Positions 2,661 to 6,362 of a stretch of 47,299 bases of DNA are shown in pieces. The stretch's first letter is position 1, and every line of letters begins with the position of its first letter. A model generated the notes under the pieces. The model worked only from the letters and a program-made list of their open reading frames with translations, made no database searches and was not told where the DNA came from. Position numbers and translations under genes: made by a program. Source of the DNA: a virus; IMG/VR virus record IMGVR_UViG_3300025141_000171, positions 1 to 47,299 of that record. One strand, written 5' to 3'.

Positions 2661-5600
2661 GTGTCTGGAAAAGAAGTAGAGAGCAACACTTATTATTTTG
2701 AAAATCTAGATATTGGTGAGCTTGAAGACATCGCAACAGATGCTTACTCGTCTAGACAGTCATCAGATCAGACTCTAGGCGATGCGTTCGCTGAGCTGTT
2801 TGAGAAACATTATAGTTATGACATAAAGAAAGGAACAGTCCATCCAGCTATTGTGCTGGAGGTTGTTTCTGGTCCCCAAGTAAAAGACGAAGCTCGTGCT
2901 ATTGGCAAAGTCAACACAAAAACTTTAAATTTAGAAAGCTACCCTTACCCTTACTTTCGAGATAAAAAAATATCAAACGAGCCCTATCCGGTAGTCGTTA
3001 TCGCAAAAGTGGCAGGTATTGATGTTGATACTAGTTGGCCAGAGGGCCCCGATGATGTGGCGCGTATTGAGATTCATAATGAATTTCTCCAATTCAGAGA
3101 AGATGAAGCATTAGGCAGAGTCGGCCCTGGAAGTATAATATGGGTAACCTATAATAACGATAATGTACTGGTTTCATATAACGGCCGGCCAGTAGGAAAA
3201 ATTGTCGGAGTGCATAAGACGAAAGCATTCGCTGATATTAAAACTAAGATTTCTGCGAGAAAAGCTTCAAAACCAAAATGTCAGGCCGCCAGAAACTTAG
3301 CCGGCCCAGCCGGCGGATTTTATGTTGGGAACACAGACGCCAATCCCAATCCAGATATTGGGCCTCCTATTCGTAAGATTAAGGGAGAGATAAAAACAGG
3401 AATTTATGGTGATGGCTCACCGCAAACAAAAGCTCACTTTAATGCATGCTTAGAAAACGCAGACATTTCTTCAAGACATCAGATTCCAGGCCCAGCGCCT
3501 AATTCCAATAACGCTTTTATATGGGTTGGGACATTAAAAAACAACGGATATATGGATCTTTTAGATAGACCCATAGGGCAAGGCAGGGAGACTATTATAT
3601 ACGCACCCATGACATTAGATTTAACCGCTCCTGTTGAAATAAAATACTATTTTCATGACGCCGGCGGGTTTGGAGCAGCACACGTTAATGGACCAAGCAC
3701 CACAGTTGCACAAGCTGCAGAAAATGCCTCGTTGCCTGGCAATGATTTTAGAGAAAAGATCGCTCCCGGAATTAAAGATTTAAACCGTAAAGGCAGAAAT
3801 TATATTTTAGTAATTCCAGAAATGGCCCACTCACGAGGTTACGGTACATCGACAAAAGACTTAAACCGTATTGAAAGTTTATCTCTAGGAGAAGATGCTG
3901 GTACAGGCTTGCCACCTTCCTCAAATACCACGACCCTCAGAACAAGAATTCCTGCAGAAGCAAGGCCTCCTGTTAAGAATTATCTAGACAAAATGCGGAT
4001 AGAGTCAAATAAAAACTTGCTTCAAATAACGCCTTTGAGAGAAAGAGAGTTTTCAACTTTTGACGGGTCTTTTACAGGTGGAAACTTTGGCGACTTTCAT
4101 CAAGAAGTTGTAGACGTGCTAGACGAACACTTAGGAACAATAAACGATAAAGTAGAATTTGTTTCTATTTTAGCAGACAGCCTAGGCGGTATTTGTCTTT
4201 CTGGAATTGTAAAAAATGTTCCAAATAGCGAGACTCATGCAAACGGTGTGACTTCTTTTAAAAATGCACTAGCAAACAAACCTATAAGAATAGACTACAT
4301 AACAGATGACAAGCTAGATGAACCAGGATTCTATAGTTCCTATCTAGGTCCGGGATCCCCGTCTTCTGTGATATACGAACAGTTTCTGTCTCAAAGAGAT
4401 CCTTTGAGTGATGGGTATACAGAGTTTAATTATATAACACCTCCCTCATCAAAGCAACAAAATGCTTTTTTTAATAATTTAGGAAAAGCAGAAGATTATA
4501 AAAAGAATTCTAAAAAAGCTTCAGGCTTGGGATCCAGAAAGTTTTCTTTTACAATCGCGCCAGAGATCACAGATCAGAGATTTGTCAGTTTTCACGTCGC
4601 TAACATTAGAGTAGGCTACGCTTTCTCAATGATAAACGACTTTTTAGATAGTTTTCCAGACTACCCAAAGAAACCAGACGCGAATACAAGCTTAAAGTCT
4701 TCTTATAACGCTGTGCCTGATCATGCATTTGCGTTAGCAACAAAACCGTCCTTGGGTGATTTAGGTAAATTAACTAAAAAAAGAGATGAACTGCTTCCCA
4801 CAATAGAAGCATTTAGGGATAGGATCGACGCAGTTGTTTCCCCACCAGAAATTTTTAATGTAGCTCTCGGTGAACCAGAGCCGGATTATGATTTTGCATG
4901 CACTAAGTACGGTGTGTATTGCGAAAACGGAACTTTAAAGACAGGAGTTGAAAGTAAGTTTTTCTCTGAATATAAGATATATCTAGAAAACGAAAGAAAG
5001 TTTGAAGAGATTAAAATTTTGATTAATGGTGAACAAAATATTCAAAAACTAAAAAGATCCAAAGAAGCGCTAATAAAACAAAAAAATACTTACGACAATC
5101 TTTTTAAAAAAGCCAAAGAAGAAGCTTCTTCTGCAAGAGAAGGTTGGGATAGTTTAAGCTCAAAATTTGATAGAGCAAATTTTTCTTATGAAAGCGTAGA
5201 GAAAGCGGCTAAACTAATTTCAGCACCTGAAGCATATAAAAAAATATTAGCTAAAATAGAAAACCAAATAAAGAATCTGACTCCAGAGGCCGTAAAAAGA
5301 CCAGAAGACTGTGTTGATCCTCCAATAACTATCGCAGAAGCTACAGGAGTTGTTCCGACCACTGTTAAGTCACGCGAGCCAGAAAATAACTGCTCAAGTA
5401 TAAAAGTTGTAACACCGAATAATTTTGAAGAATTAGCGGAGATGATACCTTACTATCCAAAAAAATCAGATTTTTCTTTTTCAGAAGGATCTCCATCTAA
5501 AAGCAAAAGTAAAGTTCACTTAGTAGAAGGATACAAAACCTCTACATTCAAATATCAAGCGCGCGGAGTAAACAATTCACTAACAAGCAAAGAAAGTCCC

Positions 5601-6362
5601 CGGGTCTGGGCATGCATATCAGAAAACTTAAAACAAGGCTGCGAAGCAGCGTCGCAAGAATCTGGTTATTATCCGTTTGAGATAACAACAGGTGCACGAG
5701 GACTGGCAGACCCAAAAACTGCTGGCGCCACAGCTTATACAACAGGAATTTCTCTACACAGCTACGGCTTGGCTGTCGACATAGATCCTTTTATAACTGG
5801 ATACCGAAACAATGGCTATCCGCTTAACAGTATTTTTACTAATGCCTGGACACCTGGTTTTATAGAAATTCACGCGATGGAATTGTGGAGGCTGGGGGTG
5901 TATTACCAATCACCCTCTATCCTAAAAAACAACGCATATGAAGCAGAAAATAGACCAAGGATGGCAGAAAATTGGCGAGGCGCCCCTTCTAGATATTTTG
6001 GTGGAGGAGAGTCTGGAGGCGCAAGAGACAAATATGTTAATATCATGAATGCTTCGAAAGGAAGTCCAATCATACCAGCCGGAGCTAACCCAACTTTGTG
6101 GGCTATACTTTTTTGCGAGAAAACAGGAATGCGTTGGGGTAACGGCTTGTTCTTAAAGAAACGCCACAATGGTGGTAAAATATGGTCACAGGCAGAGAAG
6201 GATAGAATCGCTACTATTTTTAATATACCAAGAATAGTAGACAGAGTCCAAGCAATATCTTGGAAATCAAGCATTGAAGATCATATGCATTTTCATTATT
6301 GGGGCGGCGCCTCACTGGTAAAGTGGAAAGATATAGAAGCAGCCCCAAAGAAGGAAGGATAA
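2661..6362 (+). CDS. Baseplate/tail enzyme: possible alpha/beta-hydrolase domain plus C-terminal M15 DD-peptidase
   Basis: A 1233-residue virion-type enzyme starting at GTG (2661) behind a strong AAAGGGGGGAGA ribosome site. Residues about 55-190 form a beta-rich N-terminal region that could be an OB-like hub domain. Residues about 320-570 look like an alpha/beta hydrolase: FHDAGG (H332) as an oxyanion-loop-like motif and ILADSLGGI with S507 in a nucleophile-elbow context; no catalytic His was identified. Residues about 763-875 are a long charged coiled coil. The C-terminal domain carries the M15 peptidase signature SLHSYGLAVDID (H1033, D1040) and EDHMHFHYWG (H1208/H1210), the zinc ligands and catalytic region of D,D-carboxypeptidase/endopeptidases that cut peptidoglycan peptides. 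Its position before spike-like, gp25 and gp6 genes suggests a hub-associated cell-wall-opening enzyme, replacing the lysozyme role of T4 gp5. The M15 call is firm and the hydrolase call is tentative. Confidence 0.8.
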   Translation: MSGKEVESNTYYFENLDIGELEDIATDAYSSRQSSDQTLGDAFAELFEKHYSYDIKKGTVHPAIVLEVVSGPQVKDEARAIGKVNTKTLNLESYPYPYFRDKKISNEPYPVVVIAKVAGIDVDTSWPEGPDDVARIEIHNEFLQFREDEALGRVGPGSIIWVTYNNDNVLVSYNGRPVGKIVGVHKTKAFADIKTKISARKASKPKCQAARNLAGPAGGFYVGNTDANPNPDIGPPIRKIKGEIKTGIYGDGSPQTKAHFNACLENADISSRHQIPGPAPNSNNAFIWVGTLKNNGYMDLLDRPIGQGRETIIYAPMTLDLTAPVEIKYYFHDAGGFGAAHVNGPSTTVAQAAENASLPGNDFREKIAPGIKDLNRKGRNYILVIPEMAHSRGYGTSTKDLNRIESLSLGEDAGTGLPPSSNTTTLRTRIPAEARPPVKNYLDKMRIESNKNLLQITPLREREFSTFDGSFTGGNFGDFHQEVVDVLDEHLGTINDKVEFVSILADSLGGICLSGIVKNVPNSETHANGVTSFKNALANKPIRIDYITDDKLDEPGFYSSYLGPGSPSSVIYEQFLSQRDPLSDGYTEFNYITPPSSKQQNAFFNNLGKAEDYKKNSKKASGLGSRKFSFTIAPEITDQRFVSFHVANIRVGYAFSMINDFLDSFPDYPKKPDANTSLKSSYNAVPDHAFALATKPSLGDLGKLTKKRDELLPTIEAFRDRIDAVVSPPEIFNVALGEPEPDYDFACTKYGVYCENGTLKTGVESKFFSEYKIYLENERKFEEIKILINGEQNIQKLKRSKEALIKQKNTYDNLFKKAKEEASSAREGWDSLSSKFDRANFSYESVEKAAKLISAPEAYKKILAKIENQIKNLTPEAVKRPEDCVDPPITIAEATGVVPTTVKSREPENNCSSIKVVTPNNFEELAEMIPYYPKKSDFSFSEGSPSKSKSKVHLVEGYKTSTFKYQARGVNNSLTSKESPRVWACISENLKQGCEAASQESGYYPFEITTGARGLADPKTAGATAYTTGISLHSYGLAVDIDPFITGYRNNGYPLNSIFTNAWTPGFIEIHAMELWRLGVYYQSPSILKNNAYEAENRPRMAENWRGAPSRYFGGGESGGARDKYVNIMNASKGSPIIPAGANPTLWAILFCEKTGMRWGNGLFLKKRHNGGKIWSQAEKDRIATIFNIPRIVDRVQAISWKSSIEDHMHFHYWGGASLVKWKDIEAAPKKEG

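Follow-up and report, generated by a model that had tools for sequence, protein, structure and literature searches.

The open reading frame at positions 2661..6362 (+ strand) most likely encodes a gp5-like hub or puncturing protein of a T4-like baseplate, which would place it in the virion. We think it probable that this protein combines a likely active M15 peptidase with an alpha/beta-hydrolase domain that is catalytically dead and serves as a scaffold or binding module. The DNA analysed is the IMG/VR record IMGVR_UViG_3300025141_000171, positions 1-47,299; this whole stretch is referred to as the window. The reading frame begins with a GTG start, spans 1233 amino acids, and belongs to a family of 24 non-redundant IMG/VR members including the window; the other members are approximately 31-58% identical to the window protein. 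A tblastn search against the named phages of INPHARED, using the window protein and a distant member as queries, returned no relative, and a scan of GTDB genomes returned no cellular relative. The carriers of this family are uncultured T4-like phages, apparently of marine origin. In the literature on combinations of baseplate proteins, esterases and M15 peptidases, we found no account of such an architecture.

The genes on both sides of the reading frame keep their order in each of the 22 loci that were compared, up to the limits of the individual locus. The upstream gene is late-sigma-factor-like (PHROG 234), and gp25-like and gp6-like baseplate wedge genes are located downstream (17475..19669, + strand; PHROG 261/43 and 219). 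These gp25 and gp6 homologues and the kept synteny support the assignment as a T4-like baseplate protein that occupies the position of gp5. A local profile search of isolated phages with the gp6 in common (Immutovirus, Mel-JY01, and LR756508) detected no hub homologue near gp6. The gp5 proteins of marine T4-like phages are reported to diverge strongly (PMC7029224).

The N-terminal part of the protein agrees with this assignment. In an AlphaFold2 model, residues 60-185 (2838..3215, + strand) form a small beta-rich domain with pLDDT values mostly between 50 and 83, and together with the fold matches this points, with moderate confidence, to a domain that looks like the gp5-type OB fold. The model of the whole N-terminal part matched gp5 proteins from phages PTm1 and 3M that are named "baseplate hub subunit and tail lysozyme"; there were also fold matches to small ribosomal-subunit chains the size of uS12, an OB protein. 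Like T4 gp5, the window protein combines in one polypeptide a wall hydrolase and an N terminus that is probably OB-like, and its gene lies near gp25 and gp6 homologues. Unlike in T4 gp5, an alpha/beta-hydrolase fold replaces the T4-type lysozyme domain and is followed by a coiled coil and an M15 peptidase; the C-terminal triple beta-helix needle of T4 gp5 was not seen in the window protein, whose C terminus is M15-like.

The middle domain (residues 243-660; 3387..4640, + strand) was modeled with AlphaFold2 from an alignment of 23 sequences and is confidently predicted to have an alpha/beta-hydrolase fold, with pLDDT of about 90. The predicted order of elements is beta3 (325-331) followed by H332-D333, beta4 (381-386), alphaB (476-491), beta5 (498-506), residue 507 and a helix (508-517), beta6 (542-547), beta7 (587-593), and a last strand (640-646) with a helix (650-656) behind it. 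This order is that of a canonical alpha/beta hydrolase, with an eight-stranded core, a beta3 loop and a beta5 elbow, and we regard it as evidence of moderate strength. Nearly all of the 50 best fold matches in the PDB were alpha/beta hydrolases, although all of them were weak (best E-value 1.1e-3; low TM-scores, with TMt up to 0.39). They included the PHB-degrading esterase 9byu, the feruloyl esterase 8iy8, and prolyl oligopeptidases. None of the sequence-family libraries recognized the middle domain, and a sequence profile search of the PDB gave 0 matches. The preliminary description had proposed this fold from the motifs FHDAGG (H332) and ILADSLGGI (S507), and structure prediction and fold search agree with it. 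The two residues, and the four named for the peptidase (H1033, D1040, H1208, and H1210), are at the positions given there; the putative oxyanion loop follows beta3 and the nucleophile elbow comes right after beta5, where they had been placed. These places in the predicted fold, the invariance of H332, and the conservation of SxHxxGxAxD in most relatives show that the motifs are no coincidence of the sequence.

The same description suggested that the middle domain acts as an esterase or deacylase. The conservation pattern speaks against this function. The codon for S507 (AGC; 4179..4181, + strand) encodes serine only in the window, and the other 23 members have Gly (21) or Asn (2) at this position. 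A reading in which both domains are active, so that a serine esterase or deacylase would breach the outer envelope and the M15 peptidase would then breach the wall, fits the predicted fold, the geometry of the elbow, and the serine in the window, and activity could have been regained in the window phage alone. Yet the nearest relatives, L002 and L003, are among the members with Gly, and AGC is a single base away from the Gly codon GGC. Candidates for the remainder of a triad exist by position: H645, where the last strand ends, is kept in 19/24 members, and the acid D553, after beta6, in 20/24. They could be remnants or parts of a triad, but both persist in members that have no nucleophile, and for that reason they do not constitute evidence of a working one. 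An assembly error at S507 is less likely since a second IMG/VR record is base-for-base the same as the window across 11,359 bases, the S507 codon included. As the family has no conserved serine nucleophile, an esterase is unlikely, and we consider the reading with two active enzymes highly improbable. The caveat in the preliminary description, that this domain might be inactive or only related in fold, proved to be the better answer. The idea of two hydrolases in one protein is supported only in part: for the M15 peptidase and for the fold of the middle domain, but not for the esterase function.

Other residues of the middle domain are under strong constraint. Residues 284-400 have a mean column identity of 70%, the highest in the protein. 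H332-D333 (3654..3659, + strand), at the oxyanion-loop position, are conserved in 23/23 (H) and 22/23 (D) of the members with data. E387 and S391 (3819..3833, + strand), a polar pair after beta4 on the side of the sheet where the active site would lie, are each invariant (23/23), and D506 is often present at the C-terminal end of beta5. Constraint on a domain that has no nucleophile suggests that its role is structural or in binding; a different chemistry is the less likely explanation. The latter would require a rewired active site that uses H332, D333, E387, S391, and often D506. The invariant H332, E387, and S391 do sit at strand ends that are typical of alpha/beta-hydrolase active sites; however, folding or the binding of a partner would explain their invariance equally well, and the present analysis found no precedent. 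We therefore judge such a rewired site unlikely. The same doubt applies to a putative serine-free active or ligand site, formed by H332, D333, E387, and S391 throughout the lineage, that would be more constrained than the neighboring peptidase. The middle domain is probably a pseudoenzyme kept as a scaffold or as a module that would bind a ligand or partner.

Compared with 9byu, 8iy8, and prolyl oligopeptidase, the family has the predicted fold and the positions of the oxyanion loop and elbow in common; it differs in having no nucleophile, except in the window, and no match at the sequence level. DPP6 and the ChEL domain of thyroglobulin, both inactive alpha/beta hydrolases, were also among the PDB fold matches. 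As in these two, a hydrolase fold with no working Ser nucleophile would be used for binding or assembly. DPP6 and thyroglobulin are animal proteins, and their loss of the nucleophile is not of common ancestry with that in the phage family.

A coiled coil joining the middle domain to the peptidase had been expected, and a helical linker of three long helices is indeed predicted at about residues 766-872 (4956..5276, + strand; pLDDT about 83-97). The M15-type peptidase domain follows at residues 905-1230 (5373..6350, + strand). Residues 1031-1040 (5751..5780, + strand) read SLHSYGLAVD and match SxHxxGxAxD, a motif described in zinc M15 peptidases of phages (PMC3315420); its ligands H1033 and D1040 are each found in 16/24 members. 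Fourteen of the 16 members with this H/D motif match PF13539. The window protein scored 22.7 bits against a curated cut-off of 25, and its relative L019 scored 27.1, above the cut-off. The best PDB profile match of the domain was the T5 endolysin (E-value 0.12), with the H and D of the motif aligned. A Foldseek search with the model of the coiled coil and M15 domain together found no M15 structure; the helices dominate its matches. The motif, the PF13539 matches, the score of L019, and the T5 endolysin alignment together bear out the C-terminal M15 peptidase named in the preliminary description. Its ligand list needs one correction: H1033 and D1040 stand, but H1208 is not the third zinc ligand; that ligand is H1210, two residues further on in the DHMH stretch (D1207 to H1210; 6279..6290, + strand). 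D1207 is probably the catalytic acid. The window protein resembles VanX, VanY, the T5 endolysin, and Ply500 in its SxHxxGxAxD motif, its third His ligand, and the Asp three residues before that ligand. It differs from them by a large insertion between the two motifs, by a score below the Pfam cut-off, and by the loss of the metal site in part of its family.

The metal site H1033/D1040/H1210 is complete in 15/24 members and broken in nine. H1033 and D1040 are always lost jointly (eight members have neither), and one member, L041, lacks only H1210. Position 1207 is Asp in 13 of the 15 members with an intact metal site, versus one of the nine with a broken site. On the maximum likelihood tree, the eight double losses correspond to 4 changes (3-4 in the bootstrap, with at least two forced by well-supported branches); counting L041, breakage of the M15 site amounts to 5 changes, with a range of about 3-5 events, and the alignment of 1293 columns behind the tree included the trait's own columns, which is a minor weakness. 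The best evidence that H1033, D1040, H1210, and D1207 form a real active site is that they were lost jointly and repeatedly. Judged from the aligned residues, the M15 site is given up in several lineages.

These losses raise the possibility that both domains are purely structural in the window phage as well, with a vestigial M15 site. This would be in keeping with the nine broken sites, and no M23 or phage-lysozyme match, which could have indicated a replacement lysin, was found in the incomplete records of the M15-dead phages. Against it, the window keeps all the ligands and D1207, and throughout the family the presence of the acid follows that of the ligands, a pattern expected under selection for catalysis; we consider a vestigial site in the window very unlikely. 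With its catalytic residues present, the wall peptidase of the window phage is likely active. In the several sister lineages with a dead M15 site, the protein as a whole probably serves as a structural plug or as a binder.

For the window protein, we favor a hub in which the N-terminal OB domain would mount the protein on the tail tip, the M15 domain, carried on the coiled coil, would cut peptide bonds of the peptidoglycan during entry, and the alpha/beta-hydrolase domain would serve as a rigid module for binding either a partner or a ligand in the envelope. In this phage puncturing protein, one hydrolase fold appears to be a pseudoenzyme throughout the lineage, and a second was switched off repeatedly while the scaffold was kept. 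This suggests that these phages can do without wall cutting at the tail tip or can replace it. The family provides natural pairs of active and dead proteins for testing the contribution of a tail-tip lysin to infection. It also calls for caution: a Ser motif that resembles a nucleophile elbow should not be read as activity when it is seen in only one phage protein.

Several neighboring genes deserve mention. A conserved 331-amino-acid protein (6366-7361) adjoins the hub gene, and stretches in it such as ADNIRLIGRESIRLVTG resemble a beta-helix needle; from this resemblance, the spike tip may have a gene of its own here. An extra gene after the hub reading frame had at first been suspected in the relatives, where no consistent reading frame was found. 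The reading frame directly downstream (7372-17463) encodes 3363 amino acids and occupies the same place in related loci; it had no match in Pfam or PHROG. In Microcystis phage Mel-JY01 (L076), which has the full-length gp6 in common with the window, a "putative chitinase" gene (15948-16979) lies directly upstream of the gp25-like gene, which suggests a different wall enzyme at the corresponding site. A protein of 2461 amino acids (21261-28646) contains three Laminin_G_3 (concanavalin-like lectin) stretches and is likely a receptor-binding tail protein. At positions 36-708, small genes matching PHROG families named phosphoheptose isomerase and cysteine dioxygenase are adjacent to each other, and genes of these two families are also found side by side in several relatives.
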